Shown piece by piece: positions 21,141 through 27,336 of a stretch of DNA of 64,000 bases. The notes under the pieces are model-generated. The model ran no database searches and was not told the DNA's origin. It worked only from the letters and a program-made list of their open reading frames with translations. The stretch spans positions 1-64,000 of the forward strand of contig NZ_FRFF01000133.1 of NCBI RefSeq assembly GCF_900143625.1, written 5' to 3'. The translations under genes were made by a program, and so were the position numbers. The stretch's first letter is position 1. Each line of letters begins with the position of its first letter. The stretch is from Nocardiopsis sp. JB363 (GTDB lineage: Bacteria; Actinomycetota; Actinomycetes; Streptosporangiales; Streptosporangiaceae).

Positions 21141-21401
21141 TCAGAGTGTCGAGGCGATGATGTTGGCCGGCTGGTCCAACCAGATGAGCTGCTGCTTCTT
21201 GGACATGGTCATGCCGAACCGGTCATGGTCGGGGCTGCCGGAGTCGAGCCACCACTGGTAGGCCGCTTCGAACTCCTGGAACAGTTCACGGGGTCCATAC
21301 TGGCGGACCTCGTGAGAGGTAGCGCGCGGGTCGACGTGCCAGGAGGCCCAGGAGCCGCTGCCGGGGTCCACCAGGTACACGACGAACCGCTGGTCGGTCA
21401 T
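21141..21401 (-). CDS. Stand-alone domain resembling the C terminus of RiPP-associated O-methyltransferases
   Basis: About 86 residues. The pattern VRQYGPRELFQEFEAAYQWW followed by SGSPDHDRFGMTMS and QQLIWLDQPAN matches my recollection of the C-terminal accessory domain of PIMT-type methyltransferases found in FxLD-lanthipeptide and ATP-grasp peptide systems. The methyltransferase domain itself is absent. It is either a remnant or a free-standing recognition domain. The ATG at 21401 lacks a good ribosome site; a GTG two codons earlier is possible. It is the last reverse-strand gene after the GNAT, about 320 bases further on. Confidence 0.5.
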   Translation of the reverse strand: MTDQRFVVYLVDPGSGSWASWHVDPRATSHEVRQYGPRELFQEFEAAYQWWLDSGSPDHDRFGMTMSKKQQLIWLDQPANIIASTL

Positions 21402-21595
21402 CGTCACCGTCGCTACTGCCTGTTCTCGCCCTGCTTGTGTCAGTTAGTGAAGTTTATCCCCTGGTGTCCCACTTGATCCTGACACAGAGGGGGGCGGGGC
21501 CAGACTGTTACTTCTAGCTCCGCTTCGCGACCGCTACGTCGATGTCATCCCACAGTGAGCCCTCATCGGGGTGGAGGGCTCGGCCAAGGCTGACC

Positions 21596-21623
21596 GGTCC
21601 ATCCCCGCGTGCGCGGCGCTCAC
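21596..21623. repeat. Solitary CRISPR-type repeat
   Basis: These 28 bases differ at one position from the three identical repeats at 26953-27102 and lie in the same orientation. No second full copy is within one spacer length on either side. About 40 bases before it (from 21555) a GTGAGCCC...GGGGTGGA stretch looks like a decayed copy in the opposite orientation. It lies in a 318-bp gap without genes that also holds an 8-bp long-range inverted repeat (21436-21443 with 21479-21486). Confidence 0.75.
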
Positions 21624-21719
21624 TGTCGGGAAACGCTTGGGGGTGCGGTCATGCTTCGCTTTCTGCTTCTCGGGGGGCGGGGGCGGGGAGAGGACGGTCT
21701 CCCCGGCCCCGATCAGTCA

Positions 21720-22238
21720 TCAGGTTCCGGCTGACACACCGAGCTGTTCGAGGTCCAAGCGCTCGGCTCGGCGTGCGAGTAGGTACAGGTGGCCGGCGCG
21801 GCGGTCCTGTTCCTTGACCAGGCTGAACCCCTGGGTCTCGTAGTACTTCACCAGCTCGGGGAAGAAGCACCCGCGTCGAACCCACTGACGTCCCTGCTGG
21901 GTGGCCTGGTCGACAGCCCACAGAGCGATCAGGGTGCCCGGCTTGTGCTTCCGGTATGCCGGGTCGGTCACCGTGGTGAACAGGTACAGGGCGGGTTCGG
22001 CTGCTTCCTCGGGTGTCCAGTCCTTCGGCGGGGCTTGCGTCATGACTGTGGTGCACCCCACGATCCGCTCACCATCCACGAGCACCCACATGGTGCCGCC
22101 CCCGGCCTGCCCAGCGAGATCATCGACCAGGTCCCGCCACGACTCCAACCCCTGGTCCTCTTGCCAGCCGCAGCGGGCTCGGATCATCGACGCGACCCCG
22201 GGTGTATCGGCCGTGGTGGCCTTGCGCATGGTGAACAT
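21720..22238 (-). CDS. GNAT family N-acetyltransferase of the RiPP-like operon
   Basis: 172 residues. The core GNAT strands are visible: MRKATTADTPGVASMIRARC at the start, VLVDGERIVGCTTVM, then the acetyl-CoA region DPAYRKHKPGTLIALWAVDQ, and ELVKYYETQGFSLVKEQ near the end. The pyrophosphate loop is a variant (RKHKPGT rather than RxxGxG/A). GAGAGGA lies about 5 bases before the ATG and overlaps the stop of the asparagine-synthetase-like gene, 9 bases away, so the two are coupled. An acetyltransferase beside a lasso-cyclase-like gene recalls the albusnodin type of acetylated lasso peptide; this parallel is inference. Confidence 0.8.
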   Translation of the reverse strand: MFTMRKATTADTPGVASMIRARCGWQEDQGLESWRDLVDDLAGQAGGGTMWVLVDGERIVGCTTVMTQAPPKDWTPEEAAEPALYLFTTVTDPAYRKHKPGTLIALWAVDQATQQGRQWVRRGCFFPELVKYYETQGFSLVKEQDRRAGHLYLLARRAERLDLEQLGVSAGT

Positions 22239-22247
22239 GGGGTCCTC

Positions 22248-23828
22248 TCAGTGGTTCAGGAAAGCGGTGGCGCTCATGTGCAGGCTCAGGACTTCCAGGA
22301 GTTTGGAGTCCTGCTCTTCTCGGTAACGGGTGGCGGCCAGATGTTCGACCGCAGACCGAAGTCCGTCCGGGTCGACCAGGCCTGCGTCGAACAGGGGCGA
22401 CCCTTCGGTCAGCATACGAGTGAACAACGCGGGGGCGTAGGTGGTCAGGGAATGCTCGATGACCTCGGCGAACGACTCGCGCTCTACGGGGTGGACGACG
22501 TCCTCGCTCATCCCGAGCACCCACAAGCGGCGGCGCTGCAACTGTTTCAGCTCACGCCACGCGAACGGCAGCTGTTCACCCAACTCGACCATGACCGGGT
22601 CGGCGAACGGGTGCATCGGCCAGAGCCCTTCCCTCAGCAGGACCGGCGCGGTGGTCTCCAGCGACAACAACGTCATGGAGTTGACCCGGGCCGGCGGCGC
22701 GATCCCGTCGTCAGCAAACTCCAACACAGCGCGGGCACGAGGCCCCACCCACGGCAGGATCTGAGCATCGGTGATCTCACCCAAACCCTGGTGGGGTTCC
22801 TCCTGCTGGGTGAGGGCGACCATCTCATCACCCCCGAGTCCGGTCACAACGGTGCGGGCCCCGGCCTCGGCGACCGCACGCGCCATCTGAGTGAACGGAT
22901 GATGCAATGGGTCCTCGGTCGGGCTGACCACATCTCCACCCACCCACCGGCACCCGGGTGCCAACGGCGGGAACTCCATAGCGTCGATGACGATGTCGGT
23001 GTCGGCGAACTTCACCCGGTCGCGCATCTCAGCGCGGCGCCGGATCTGTTGCTCCCGGCCCGGCCCGCCGATCAACAGGGTGGCGGTGGGGAACAAGCCG
23101 GGATGGCGCTCGGCCACTCGGGTGGCCACGGTGCCCGAGTCGAACCCGCCCGTCAGGTGGAACAGGGTGGTGTCCTCGGCCCAGGGGCGCCGGTCCATCG
23201 CGGTGTCCATGGTGGTGACGAACGCGCCTAGGACGTCCGCGTCGGGCAACAACTCCCGGGGGGAGAAGTGCAGCGCCGGGGCGGGGTAACTGATCCACAG
23301 GTGCCCGCCGTAGTGCGCGGTGGCCCGTTCCGTGAGCCGGTGTACGCCCTGGAACAGGGTGTCGGTGCTGTACCGGGGCCGATAGATCAGTAGCCGGGCG
23401 GCCTCCTTGGGGTTGAGCCCGGTGGCGTGGTCGCGTAGGTCGGCCATGTCCCATGACCCGAACAGGGATCGGCCGTCGTCGGCGAGGTAGAGCGGCGTGG
23501 TCCGGGCCGACCCTGCGGTGACGCGCACGGGCTGGTCGAGTTCAGTCTCCACGAGTACGTAGTCGGTCGGCCAGTCGGTGACGGCGACGCGCGCCTGGTC
23601 GTACTCGCCGGGGGTGAGTTCACGAACAGTGGGGTCGGCCGCTGGGCGGTCGGCGACACGCTCACGGACCATGATCAGGGTGCGGTGCCCGTCGGTCGCG
23701 GCCAGGTGTTCCACGAGCGGGTGGGTGAAGGGCTCGACACGGCTGCGCTGGTCGAGGGTGCTGTAGCACGCCCCGGACCAGGCCCAGGTCGGGTTGTCGC
23801 TGTAGGGGGTCAGACGCAAGCTCAACAT
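22248..23828 (-). CDS. Asparagine-synthetase-like protein (possible lasso-type macrolactam synthetase)
   Basis: 526 residues. The ATP-pyrophosphatase domain is intact: the PP-loop LTGGFDSGT at residues 225-233 and GLGGDE at 330-335. The N-terminal glutaminase-like half lacks the catalytic Cys at position 2 (it begins MLSLRL), so it cannot use glutamine in the normal way. Loss of that Cys with retention of the PP-loop is what lasso cyclases and other amide-forming homologues show. It lies 41 bases after a 53-residue peptide gene and 9 bases before a GNAT. Asparagine biosynthesis is unlikely; adenylation of a carboxylate on the neighbouring peptide is the inferred role. Confidence 0.82.
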   Translation of the reverse strand: MLSLRLTPYSDNPTWAWSGACYSTLDQRSRVEPFTHPLVEHLAATDGHRTLIMVRERVADRPAADPTVRELTPGEYDQARVAVTDWPTDYVLVETELDQPVRVTAGSARTTPLYLADDGRSLFGSWDMADLRDHATGLNPKEAARLLIYRPRYSTDTLFQGVHRLTERATAHYGGHLWISYPAPALHFSPRELLPDADVLGAFVTTMDTAMDRRPWAEDTTLFHLTGGFDSGTVATRVAERHPGLFPTATLLIGGPGREQQIRRRAEMRDRVKFADTDIVIDAMEFPPLAPGCRWVGGDVVSPTEDPLHHPFTQMARAVAEAGARTVVTGLGGDEMVALTQQEEPHQGLGEITDAQILPWVGPRARAVLEFADDGIAPPARVNSMTLLSLETTAPVLLREGLWPMHPFADPVMVELGEQLPFAWRELKQLQRRRLWVLGMSEDVVHPVERESFAEVIEHSLTTYAPALFTRMLTEGSPLFDAGLVDPDGLRSAVEHLAATRYREEQDSKLLEVLSLHMSATAFLNH

Positions 23829-23869
23829 GGGGGGCTCCGGGGCGTGCGTAGGTCAGCAGATGTGGGTGG

Positions 23870-24031
23870 TTAGCGGGCGGTGGTGTCGTAGGTGTGCGCG
23901 GCATCGGAGGACCCCGAGGACTTCTTGTACTCGTGGCTCTGCTCGGGGCTCTGCACGATGAGGTGTGCCGGGGTGCTGAACAGGTCCACCCACACGGCCG
24001 GGGCCGGTGCGGGGGGCAGGAAGTCGTTCAT
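23870..24031 (-). CDS. Putative RiPP precursor peptide
   Basis: 53 residues with AAGGAG five bases before the ATG at 24031. The N-terminal half is Pro/Ala-rich and hydrophobic (NDFLPPAPAPAVWVDLFSTP), and the C-terminal half is polar with Ser, Lys, Asp and Glu (EYKKSSGSSDAAHTYDTTAR), a leader/core-like split. Acidic residues and two lysines in the second half could serve a cyclase and an acetyltransferase. The canonical YxxP leader motif of lasso precursors is not seen. It heads the peptide / asparagine-synthetase-like / GNAT run. It has no recognised family, and its role is inferred from context. Confidence 0.6.
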   Translation of the reverse strand: MNDFLPPAPAPAVWVDLFSTPAHLIVQSPEQSHEYKKSSGSSDAAHTYDTTAR

Positions 24032-24077
24032 GTTGCTCCTTACGTGGTCACTGGTGGTCTTTGGTAAGGCCACCTGC

Positions 24078-24149
24078 TTACCCTCCGCACCTGCTGCACA
24101 GCCTGCCGGGGCATTCCGCGCCGCATTCGGAGCACGTTCCCTTCTTCAT
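24078..24149 (-). CDS. 23-residue Cys-rich mini-protein, zinc-ribbon-like
   Basis: A full Shine-Dalgarno, AAAGGAGGTGA, lies about 6 bases before the ATG at 24149, and the frame ends with TAA at 24078-24080. The peptide has six or fewer non-polar residues and five Cys in the order Cys6, Cys9, Cys13, Cys18, Cys21, with CSECG and CSRCGG knuckles, as in a minimal zinc ribbon. It is too short for ordinary gene calling. It sits 46 bases before the precursor-like gene on the same strand, between it and the BldC-like gene. It may be a tiny metal-binding regulator or a modified peptide. Confidence 0.6.
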   Translation of the reverse strand: MKKGTCSECGAECPGRLCSRCGG

Positions 24150-24234: not shown

Positions 24235-24414
24235 CTATCCGCGTTGGGCTAGGAGGGTACGGATCTCCTCCTGCCGGTAGCGGTGGTGGCCGCCCAGGGT
24301 GCGGATCGAGGTCAGCTTGCCCTCCTTGGACCAACGGGTCACGGTCTGGGGGTCCACCCGGAACAGGGCGGCCACCTCGGCGGGGGTGAGTAGGGGGTCG
24401 GGGAGTCCGTTCAC
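24235..24414 (-). CDS. BldC-like MerR-type mini-regulator (excisionase-family HTH)
   Basis: About 59 residues from a GTG at 24414. The sequence LLTPAEVAALFRVDPQTVTR, then WSKEGKLTSIRTLGGHHRYR and EEIRTLL, is nearly the whole of BldC, the small MerR-like developmental regulator of actinomycetes, minus its short tails. BldC-type proteins bind DNA cooperatively on direct repeats; excisionases share the fold. Its start overlaps the stop of the preceding 44-codon gene by four bases (GTGA). The position in front of the mini-protein and precursor genes suggests local control of this operon or a former excisionase role. Confidence 0.8.
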   Translation of the reverse strand: MNGLPDPLLTPAEVAALFRVDPQTVTRWSKEGKLTSIRTLGGHHRYRQEEIRTLLAQRG

Positions 24415-25838: not shown

Positions 25839-26648
25839 GTGGGATCAAGCGATTCCGCCCGGCAGCGCTTCGGTAAGCTACTCAAGAAATACCGTGCCCT
25901 ATCAGGCATGACGCAACAGGAGCTAGCCAAAGCTGCCGTGATCGCGCAGAGCACCGTCAGCGAACTAGAGGGAGGGAGGAAAGGGACACGACGCGAGCAA
26001 GTGGAACGAATAGACGCAGCTCTTATCGCTCACGGGGTGCTGCTGAACGCATGGGAAGCAGCGTTCTCCCCAACAGGGATGATCGGGTACTTCCGTGAAG
26101 TCGCTGAGGATGAGCAGGTCGCTATCGAGATCCGTGAATACGCGCTCGGGCTTGTGCCTGGACTGGTGCAGGTTGAACAGTACGCGCGGGCGATCAGTGA
26201 GCTTGCGTCCCCCTATGCCTCACCAGGGCAGATTGACCAGATTGTCCAGGCGCGTCTTTTCCGGCAACAGATCCTTGACCGGGAACACCCGCCGATGATG
26301 GTCGTGATACTGGATGAGTCGGTTCTCCGTCGCCGGTTCTCTAACCCCAAGGTGATGCCCGCGCAGATTAGCCACCTATTGGAGCTGAGCTATCGTCCCC
26401 GTATCACCATCCAAATCATCCCAACCGACACCGAGGATCACGCGGGCCTGAGCGGGTCGTTTAGGCTGAGCACTGCCCCTGACAGCAGCCCCTTCGCTTA
26501 CGTCGAGGGCCAAGAGACGGGCATGACCCTCAAGGAACCCGAGATCGTGGCAAGCTATGAGCGAACATTCGCGGACCTGCGAAGCTTCGCTCTGCCTGTG
26601 CCCGCGTCACGATCCCGGATGGAAGAGATTCGAGGAAGCATCACATGA
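25839..26648 (+). CDS. XRE-family regulator with DUF5753 domain, second copy
   Basis: 269 residues. HTH at residues 8-60 (RFGKLLKKYRALSGMTQQEL, then VIAQSTVSELEGGRKGTRRE), then the DUF5753 domain with the typical LGLVPGLVQVEQYARAI, RLFRQQILDREHPP and RITIQIIPTDTEDHAGLSGS stretches. Codon use is less GC-rich than in neighbouring genes, suggesting recent transfer. The GTG at 25839 follows GGTGAGG very closely, so the start is not certain. Its stop overlaps the DUF397 start (ATGA). Confidence 0.9.
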   Translation: MGSSDSARQRFGKLLKKYRALSGMTQQELAKAAVIAQSTVSELEGGRKGTRREQVERIDAALIAHGVLLNAWEAAFSPTGMIGYFREVAEDEQVAIEIREYALGLVPGLVQVEQYARAISELASPYASPGQIDQIVQARLFRQQILDREHPPMMVVILDESVLRRRFSNPKVMPAQISHLLELSYRPRITIQIIPTDTEDHAGLSGSFRLSTAPDSSPFAYVEGQETGMTLKEPEIVASYERTFADLRSFALPVPASRSRMEEIRGSIT

Positions 26649-26830
26649 TGACCGATGGTTGGAAGAAGTCCAGCTACAGCAACGGCCAGGGCGGCAACTG
26701 TGTGGAGGCGCGCAGCGATACGGGCGCTTCCCAGGTGCTCATGCGTGACACCCAGAACCGTGAGCTGGGCCACCTGGAGATGCCCGCGTCGGAGTGGGCG
26801 ACCCTGCTCCGCACCGCAGCACGTGTCTAG
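26645..26830 (+). CDS. DUF397 protein, second copy
   Basis: 61 residues with one canonical motif, WKKSSYSNGQGGNCVEARSD, and the usual ending MRDTQNRELGHLEMPASEWA. It overlaps the XRE stop by four bases, so the pair is an operon. Unlike the copy at 14805-15059 it has a single motif and keeps the Cys. A strong T-tailed hairpin follows. Confidence 0.9.
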   Translation: MMTDGWKKSSYSNGQGGNCVEARSDTGASQVLMRDTQNRELGHLEMPASEWATLLRTAARV

Positions 26831-26886: not shown

Positions 26887-26952
26887 TGTGTTCAGCGGGC
26901 ACAGGCTACCCCGGGGGTCTACCGACCACCAGGACCAAAGGCCCGTCACTCC

Positions 26953-27102
26953 GGTCCATCCCCGCGTGCGCGGGGCTCACCAAGAGGGTTGGCGCGGTTA
27001 GATTCGGATTCACGGTCCATCCCCGCGTGCGCGGGGCTCACCCCGCGGCTCCTTTTGATTGACGAAATGGGGTCGGTCCATCCCCGCGTGCGCGGGGCTC
27101 AC
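26953..27102. CRISPR. Short type I-E-like CRISPR array, 3 repeats and 2 spacers, no cas genes nearby
   Basis: Three identical 28-base repeats lie at 26953-26980, 27014-27041 and 27075-27102, separated by two unrelated 33-base spacers (26981-27013, 27042-27074). The CCCCGCG-TG-CGCGGGG hairpin core and the 28/33 spacing match type I-E. By comparison with E. coli repeat polarity the transcript would run on the reverse strand, putting the leader to the right, where 27103-27190 is somewhat AT-richer. No cas gene is in the window, so the array is orphan or served from elsewhere. Confidence 0.93.
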
Positions 27103-27336
27103 AGTTAATGACCTGCGACAACGCGAGACTTTATCTTCGCGTTATCAAGCACTGAGGGGTGCAACTGCTGATGATCCTACGGGAGCTTTTGGCCTGAGAC
27201 AGGTAACGACCATGACCTCTGAGGCTCGCTCACGTTGGCCCCGAACCTGCTCGCTTGGAGTGGGGGTGGCGGCTTCCGGGTCGAGGCGCATCGGGGAGGA
27301 TGCACTTGGCATGACCCCGTTGCGCAGGAGAACTCC

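Follow-up and report, generated by a model that had tools for sequence, protein, structure and literature searches.

The window analysed here is a stretch of 64,000 nucleotides (nt), positions 1 to 64,000 of contig NZ_FRFF01000133.1 of Nocardiopsis sp. JB363 (genome size 7.07 Mb), and it carries a candidate locus for a ribosomally synthesised and post-translationally modified peptide (RiPP). On the minus strand, genes for a 53-residue peptide, a 526-residue asparagine-synthetase (AS)-like protein and a 172-residue GNAT acetyltransferase follow one another with gaps of 41 and 9 nt. The precursor peptide gene (23870..24031; MNDFLPPAPAPAVWVDLFSTPAHLIVQSPEQSHEYKKSSGSSDAAHTYDTTAR) was recognised from its open reading frame (ORF), its ribosome-binding site (AAGGAG 4 nt upstream of the ATG start) and its homologues. 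The gene at 22248..23828 encodes a putative amide-forming enzyme that has the PP-loop GGFDS and lacks the glutaminase Cys, an assignment based on PF00733, an AlphaFold2 (AF2) fold and homologues. The product of the third gene (21720..22238) passed two Pfam acetyltransferase cut-offs and showed the GNAT fold in a fold test. Judged by the AS-like enzyme, the nearest named relatives were Nocardiopsis and Marinactinospora.

A scan of species genomes yielded 57 named loci (58 with the window), referred to below as the inner group. They were located by a pair of motifs that both lie in the enzyme's C-terminal half, and loci with losses at that end would therefore escape the search. When ORFs in flanks of up to 8 kb were clustered across the 58 loci, enzyme, GNAT and peptide formed three families found at nearly all of them. 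The GNAT gene adjoined the enzyme gene at all 58 loci, on the same strand at 35 and on the opposite strand at 23. The peptide lay directly upstream of the enzyme at 47 of the 57 named loci, including two (L033 and L079) in which the enzyme frame is apparently shifted near its start; the other ten comprised one locus with N-masked upstream sequence and nine enzyme genes without a start. Counting the window, the peptide was present at 48 of 48 loci with a readable upstream region and an enzyme gene not truncated at its 5′ end. The unit of peptide, AS-like protein and GNAT that had been proposed in a first-pass annotation is thus confirmed. Four distant relatives (33-41% identity) also had all three genes, with the peptide upstream in each. 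Mantel correlations were 0.89 for enzyme and peptide, 0.86 for enzyme and GNAT, and 0.75 for GNAT and peptide (n = 48; 0 of 2000 permutations in each case), values for which common descent alone suffices. A phylum-wide enzyme search gave matches in 2 of 396 genomes, the host genome included; with three candidates scored per genome this is a weak negative. At nine loci (L051, L070, L071, L073, L074, L077, L083, L084 and L086), a deletion has removed the precursor gene together with the beginning of the enzyme gene, so that the enzyme match begins between residues 184 and 403, and the GNAT gene is retained; it is split in L073 and shortened in L086.

The first-pass annotation had added a fourth operon gene, a stand-alone methyltransferase C terminus. 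The frame in question (21141-21407, open from 21443; feature 21141..21443, minus strand) begins 312 nt beyond the GNAT gene, and its partial match to TIGR04188 covers only profile positions 294-361 of 363 in one search and 280-361 in another. TIGR04188 had 21 matches in the host genome, several of them partial. Counting the window, related ORFs occurred in the flanks of only 11 of the 58 loci, with neither distance nor strand constant. Because the frame is fragmentary and its relatives are not fixed neighbours, a four-gene operon was ruled out; peptide, enzyme and GNAT recur together and the methyltransferase C terminus does not recur with them. The fragment resembles the C terminus of a RiPP-type PIMT-like methyltransferase and is probably a remnant outside the unit.

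The precursor has a recognition-like leader motif, F-x7-V-Q, at residues 18-27 (23951..23980, minus strand). The pattern F-x7-[VILT]-[PQAVT] occurred in 67 of 67 precursors, 15 of which (those of the outer group, described below) had been chosen by a version of the leader motif itself. In the presumed core, YKKSSGSSDAAHTYDTTAR (23873..23929, minus strand), residues are numbered from Tyr35 of the window peptide as position 1, so that the conserved Lys37 and Asp43 are positions 3 and 9. K3, G6, D9 and D15 were invariant in all 52 inner-group peptides; S8 and Y14 were kept in 50 each, K2 in 49, S7 in 48 and Y1 in 46. The inner peptides were collected by a motif containing K3, G6 and D9, and the invariance of these three is therefore partly a product of selection; a motif-free ORF list gave the same peptides. 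From Tyr35, the core was 19 residues long in 49 peptides and 17 in the other three. D9 and D15 were the sole acidic residues from position 1 onward in 38 of the 52, and in L029 K3 was the sole Lys from that position. Among twelve Streptomyces peptides, the ratio of nonsynonymous to synonymous differences (pN/pS) in the core was 0.27, indicating clear constraint. The peptide is thus kept with the enzyme at homologous loci, with invariant core positions, which answers the doubt raised at first pass whether it would be conserved. An EF-hand-like appearance of KVDGDSDSPRNYDE in L029 was dropped as a lead, since the pattern is missing from most relatives.

Two further features were seen upstream of precursor genes. 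In the window, a 23-residue frame with four Cys arranged as two CxxC pairs (MKKGTCSECGAECPGRLCSRCGG; 24077-24149, minus strand) lies just upstream of the precursor; no such frame was noticed in the upstream ORF lists of other loci. At L042, L052, L053, L054 and L080, a gene resembling M20-family peptidases or deacetylases lies upstream of the precursor (the Pfam test was made on L053 only), and its product may serve to trim the peptide or to take off acetyl groups.

PF00733 matched the AS-like enzyme above cut-off, over residues 208-338 only, and TIGR01536 scored 19.1 bits against a cut-off of 267.1. Residue 2 is Leu, and the glutaminase Cys is therefore missing; the PP-loop GGFDS and GLGGDE are both present, in agreement with the first-pass description. 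The AF2 model (pLDDT 92.9) matched TsnB9, carbapenam synthetase, AsnB and beta-lactam synthetase in full-length fold; the predicted fold is the complete two-domain AS/beta-lactam-synthetase fold with a PP-loop. A sequence search of the PDB at E ≤ 1 returned a single match, beta-lactam synthetase, an intramolecular amide former; its catalytic residues could not be mapped with confidence onto this enzyme. Among 7994 candidates scored, 224 homologues were found at E ≤ 0.001, in Nocardiopsis, Streptomyces, Actinomadura, Frankia and other taxa; the best 120 of the 224 bore the names 'asparagine synthase(-related)', 'asparagine synthetase B' or hypothetical. By its TIGR01536 score and its PDB and fold matches, the enzyme is not one of the glutamine-dependent asparagine synthetases, a possibility left open at first pass. 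In the host genome as a whole, no TIGR01536 match above cut-off, and hence no glutamine-dependent asparagine synthetase, was found. One database entry, P0055, is a truncated enzyme reading into a PF13471-like tail and is probably a broken or chimeric gene; precursor P0129 is listed on a contig of equal length (25,857).

A wider family was found in a set of 246 Streptomyces genomes (the genus of S. triculaminicus), in which the enzyme was patchily distributed (matches in 24 at E ≤ 1e-20). From it we defined an outer group of 18 lower-identity Streptomyces loci (L161-L178), whose enzymes show 33-40% identity to the queries. No GNAT match was found at these 18 loci at E ≤ 1e-4. A methyltransferase gene overlaps or closely follows the enzyme gene in 14 of the 18, and both of the two tested passed Pfam methyltransferase cut-offs. 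Peptides were found at 15 of the 18 loci by the leader motif F-x7-[VIL]-[PQ] alone. Their cores (KMPGGGDNNGDHCS(K), KPAGSEDQGYRDEND and KPQESSDQGRFED) are unlike those of the inner group; K-x5-D was nevertheless present in all 15, and every other Lys-Asp spacing from 0 to 13 occurred in at most 12. Among 5.8 billion proteins, a first profile search found 60 database peptides (E ≤ 0.01) and a second one 37 more; among the named matches listed for both, the names were 'hypothetical protein' or 'uncharacterized'. K-x5-D was found in 59 of the 60 and 35 of the 37 (94 of 97 in all). The three exceptions are P0213, with a one-residue deletion, P0214, whose end looks shifted, and P0174, in which the Asp is gone. 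No other Lys-Asp spacing was near-universal across both sets. The distance from leader to Lys varies (16 to 19 in 62 of 67 precursors), whereas that from Lys to Asp is constant. The residue at position 1 varies over the family (Y, T, S, L, R, D or E), and the Lys two residues later is kept.

We propose that this is a minimal RiPP-type locus in which the AS-like enzyme would close a side-chain macrolactam between Lys and Asp and the GNAT would serve mainly for self-resistance. This reading has close to an even chance of being correct (roughly 0.48). The AS-like enzyme would bind the precursor leader through F-x7-[VI]-[PQ]. By analogy with the chemistry of its family, it would then adenylate the side-chain carboxylate of the invariant Asp at core position 9 with ATP; adenylation of a carboxylate by AS-fold enzymes is described in the available text of PMC13060819. 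The amine of the invariant Lys at position 3 would attack, as the conservation of K-x5-D suggests, to give a side-chain isopeptide and a 7-residue macrolactam. The leader would be trimmed after cyclisation, by a protease that is probably shared. Finally, the gene distribution suggests that the GNAT may acetylate a remaining amine of the product or of an intermediate, mainly for self-resistance. A Lys-Asp isopeptide is the simplest reading because the family shares the carboxylate of D9 and the amine of the Lys six residues before it, and does not keep position 1. Since the nucleophile would be Lys and not a freed N terminus, neither a leader peptidase nor a RiPP recognition element (RRE) protein would be needed first, which would fit the rarity of linked leader peptidase genes (B2 of lasso peptide clusters) reported below. 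At first pass the peptide had been taken for either a new lasso branch or another amide-forming RiPP. The second option is favoured, because Lys and Asp are kept at a fixed spacing and the would-be N-terminal residue varies.

Several findings weigh against this reading, some of them given below with the alternatives that they favour. In the inner group D15 and D9 are equally invariant, and K-x11-D occurred in all 60 peptides of the first database search and in 24 of the 37 added by the second; the acceptor may therefore be another residue. Because the search profiles hold columns for the Lys and the Asp, they favour peptides with both residues, and the database peptides are thus less independent evidence than the 15 of the outer group. 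Within that group, 12 of the 15 peptides have the core KMPGGGDNNGDHCS in common, so that few kinds of core are represented; no peptide was found at L167 and L174, and that of L177 was found by eye only. Among seven Nocardiopsis peptides, pN/pS in the core was only 0.66, a sign of weak constraint.

The role of the GNAT was judged from its distribution. Among 100 relatives, the GNAT was found in 22 genomes (E ≤ 1e-15) and an enzyme match in 15 (E ≤ 1e-3), two of the latter weak. Fourteen GNAT copies away from the enzyme were retrieved, of which 12 were intact; in the surroundings read, no enzyme match or core-like motif was found for any of the 14, several of these stretches ending near a contig end. 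In a 74-row tree, from which rows with stops or with fewer than ~140 aligned residues had been left out, the stand-alone GNATs were nested among the clustered ones, and at least 6 label changes were forced on supported branches. Four stand-alone GNATs compared with clustered copies gave pN/pS values of 0.20-0.40. In the Streptomyces set, the GNAT was present in 10 of 246 genomes at E ≤ 1e-20, and two of these (G244 and G260) lacked an enzyme match. Since genomes that lack the enzyme can carry intact members of this GNAT clade, the distribution is that of a resistance gene, and a role mainly in self-resistance is probable. Lys acetylation is the self-resistance mechanism given for triculamin and lariocidin in the available part of PMC13352647.

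Alternatively, the GNAT may be a tailoring enzyme that acetylates the peptide during maturation. This is a rather unlikely but serious alternative. It would account for the constant adjacency of the GNAT and the enzyme (58 of 58), and the replacement of the GNAT by a methyltransferase in the outer group looks like a swap of tailoring steps. Acetylation was also surmised to be necessary early in albusnodin formation, according to the available text of PMC9266682. Against it, intact GNAT genes, constrained where tested, occur in genomes without an enzyme match (the peptide was sought there only near the GNAT genes). Furthermore, the GNAT was kept, if split or shortened in two cases, at all nine loci that had lost the peptide and the start of the enzyme, with the qualification that a locus search by C-terminal motifs partly misses the opposite losses. 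Self-resistance by Lys acetylation has its own difficulty in three peptides that have Thr at position 2 and nevertheless come with a GNAT. One of them is L029, which has no Lys beside K3; there the GNAT would therefore need the N-terminal amine as its target.

A lasso peptide or unthreaded lariat would require that a protease, possibly with a B1 (RRE protein) and B2 encoded elsewhere, frees the alpha-amine of Tyr35 (for a 9-residue ring to Asp43) or of Lys37 (for a 7-residue ring), after which the enzyme would close the ring and the GNAT would acetylate Lys. We regard this as unlikely. Like canonical lasso clusters (A, B1, B2 and C), the locus has an AS-family enzyme beside a short leader/core precursor with Asp as the likely acceptor, and the core measured from Tyr35, with Asp at 9, has lasso-like dimensions. 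Acetyltransferases accompany albusnodin, triculamin and lariocidin, as the available descriptions have it. Profile-profile comparison of the enzyme with lasso cyclases of the genus gave a probability of 95.8 over part of the enzyme, and in a sequence alignment the Lys-containing motif of lasso cyclases fell near RESF of this enzyme. However, the NCBIfam lasso models NF033535 and NF033561 did not match the enzyme at E ≤ 1; among seven lasso cyclases of the genus used as a control, NF033561 matched all seven (four above cut-off) and NF033535 five. The residue that would start a 9-residue ring is variable, and a kept Lys takes the place of a kept N-terminal residue. The penultimate residue before Tyr35 was H in 34 of the 52 inner peptides, N in 8, Y in 4, F in 4, D in 1 and E in 1; for that start point, the penultimate Thr of canonical lasso precursors was found in none.

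The distribution of the lasso leader peptidase points the same way. A B2 profile matched in the flanks of one of the 58 inner loci (L059), at none of the four distant and none of the 18 outer loci, and at 8 of 8 controls; the profile was home-made from sequences of the genus and is not clean, three of its nine rows having been read on the wrong strand. The absence of the usual leader peptidase described at first pass is thus general, a linked B2 being rare. At L059, a B2 and an RRE-like frame lie ~5 kb from the enzyme, the sole such pair in the inner group. An RRE search with one sequence matched one of 58 inner loci (again L059) and none of the 18 outer loci; it was insensitive, because it also matched only 2 of 8 controls. 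The host genome has a single PF13471 match and a single PqqD match, which lie together on another contig and could supply B1 and B2 for a lasso pathway. Among genomes of the same genus, PF13471 occurred somewhere in 8 of 8 with a close enzyme match and in 17 of 29 others (~0.03 by hand, uncorrected), which is no more than suggestive of B1 and B2 acting in trans. Given this co-occurrence and the B2/RRE pair of L059, a peptidase may act in trans. However, the host pair sits with methyltransferase genes of its own and with a ThiF-like frame recognised by eye. That region (L089; contig C77, 1-12000) looks like a RiPP locus in its own right, comprising a PqqD-type RRE, a PF13471 peptidase, two TIGR04188 matches and the ThiF-like frame.

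Three lasso or lasso-like peptides with acetyltransferases call for closer comparison. In albusnodin-type lassos, an acetyltransferase is likewise coupled to an AS-like cyclase in the descriptions available; however, albusnodin has a canonical albB gene in the same sources, and NF033561, the albusnodin-side model, misses this enzyme. Triculamin, given as cyc(SKKSKPGD)GIRGKGVRG in the available part of PMC13192320, and lariocidin resemble the present peptides in a KK-containing core with an Asp acceptor and in a linked GNAT, which those accounts tie to self-resistance for triculamin and lariocidin. Their SKKxxxGDG-like core was not found here, where the core is K-x5-D, and lariocidin has B1, B2 and C in the text available, in contrast to the rarity of a linked B2 in the inner group. 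One inner locus, L040, is from S. triculaminicus itself. Identity with triculamin was ruled out, since the triculamin core lies at a separate locus of that genome (L113) with another architecture. There an ATG served by its own AAGGAGG precedes the core; a follower stretch, a gene for a 424-residue AS-like protein and one for an ABC transporter come next, and a GNAT is encoded nearby on the opposite strand. The triculamin core thus follows the start Met and has a follower after it, whereas our precursor has a leader before a core of different sequence. Our enzyme profile matched the triculamin-side AS protein at E 0.21 only. About 4 kb upstream of the triculamin core, L113 also has a further AS-like gene, accompanied by an RRE-like frame and a B2 frame, so that it is no clear example of a route lacking B1 and B2.

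The AS-like enzyme might instead act on Asp without cyclising, by amidating the side chains of Asp or, in the manner of TsrC and ScdTA, the C terminus, or by attaching a small-molecule amine. TsrC, ScdTA and PesC are AS-fold enzymes that act on ribosomal peptides, and the available text of PMC13060819 describes such RiPP enzymes as amidating the C terminus or converting it to a nitrile, PesC with glutamine or ammonia. The invariance of both D9 and D15 in the inner group would suit a modification of side chains. However, we consider this explanation improbable: the glutaminase Cys is missing throughout this family, and the kept Lys would be left without explanation. C-terminal modification in particular is disfavoured, as the peptide ends vary in residue and in length. 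A 10-residue ring from G6 to D15 was likewise disfavoured: in the three peptides whose position 2 is Thr, only two residues would come after the ring, and the outer group conserves neither of its two end positions.

It is very improbable that the peptide lies outside any natural-product pathway, as an intracellular regulator, a cofactor-like peptide or an AS-enzyme subunit. The constancy of its core would be unusual in an antibiotic, and inspection of the recurrent neighbours by eye revealed no transporter, but the leader/core split, the cores exchangeable across the family, the patchy distribution among Streptomyces and the GNAT genes occurring without the enzyme all argue against it.

A Lys-Asp isopeptide formed by an AS-like enzyme would place the system beside two known groups. 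Graspetides are made by ATP-grasp ligases, and leader removal beforehand is not required. They carry side-chain macrolactam or macrolactone links (available text of PMC13097080), and the present peptides resemble them in a conserved core Lys/Asp pair at a fixed spacing, found here in all 15 outer and in 94 of 97 database peptides. In contrast to graspetide loci, no ATP-grasp ligase is present, and the sole large enzyme of the unit has the AS fold. Beta-lactam and carbapenam synthetases have this fold in common with our enzyme and are likewise AS-like enzymes turned to intramolecular amide formation; however, they act on small molecules and show 11-17% identity in structural alignments, whereas a ribosomal peptide is associated with the enzyme here.

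Other features of the window lie upstream of the unit. These are a BldC/excisionase-like helix-turn-helix gene (24235-24414, minus strand), an XRE-DUF5753 gene (25839-26645, plus strand) and a DUF397 gene (26645-26827, plus strand). The ORF family that includes the XRE gene was found in the flanks of 16 of the 58 loci. At 26952-27103, three copies of a 30-nt repeat with 61-nt spacing (CGGTCCATCCCCGCGTGCGCGGGGCTCACC) form a short CRISPR-like array.

Taken together, the peptide, the AS-like enzyme and the GNAT are a genuine recurrent RiPP-type system that is apparently undescribed. In the open-access literature we found no description of it, and the core fragments tried from the inner and outer groups matched nowhere; most subscription papers lay beyond this search. 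As a tentative proposal, somewhat short of an even chance, the family may be a new actinomycete RiPP class, in which an AS-family enzyme and not an ATP-grasp ligase would form Lys-Asp side-chain isopeptides in K-x5-D cores before the leader is removed; GNAT and methyltransferase would be exchangeable partners, and related species devoid of the enzyme would carry the GNAT as an immunity gene. AS-family enzymes are scarcely explored as RiPP modifiers beyond lasso peptides. A 2026 preprint counts ~300 uncharacterised RiPP-linked members of the AS family (PMC13060819, available text). The lasso genome-mining rule in the accessible part of PMC13289728 asks for PF13471 with an AS domain, or for micJ25 or mcjC, and this family therefore escapes its first branch. 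If the proposal is true, peptide cyclisation by an AS fold would not depend on release of the N terminus, so that the enzyme would be an attractive tool for peptide stapling within fusions, and the GNAT genes found without the enzyme would point to a product that related bacteria need to detoxify.

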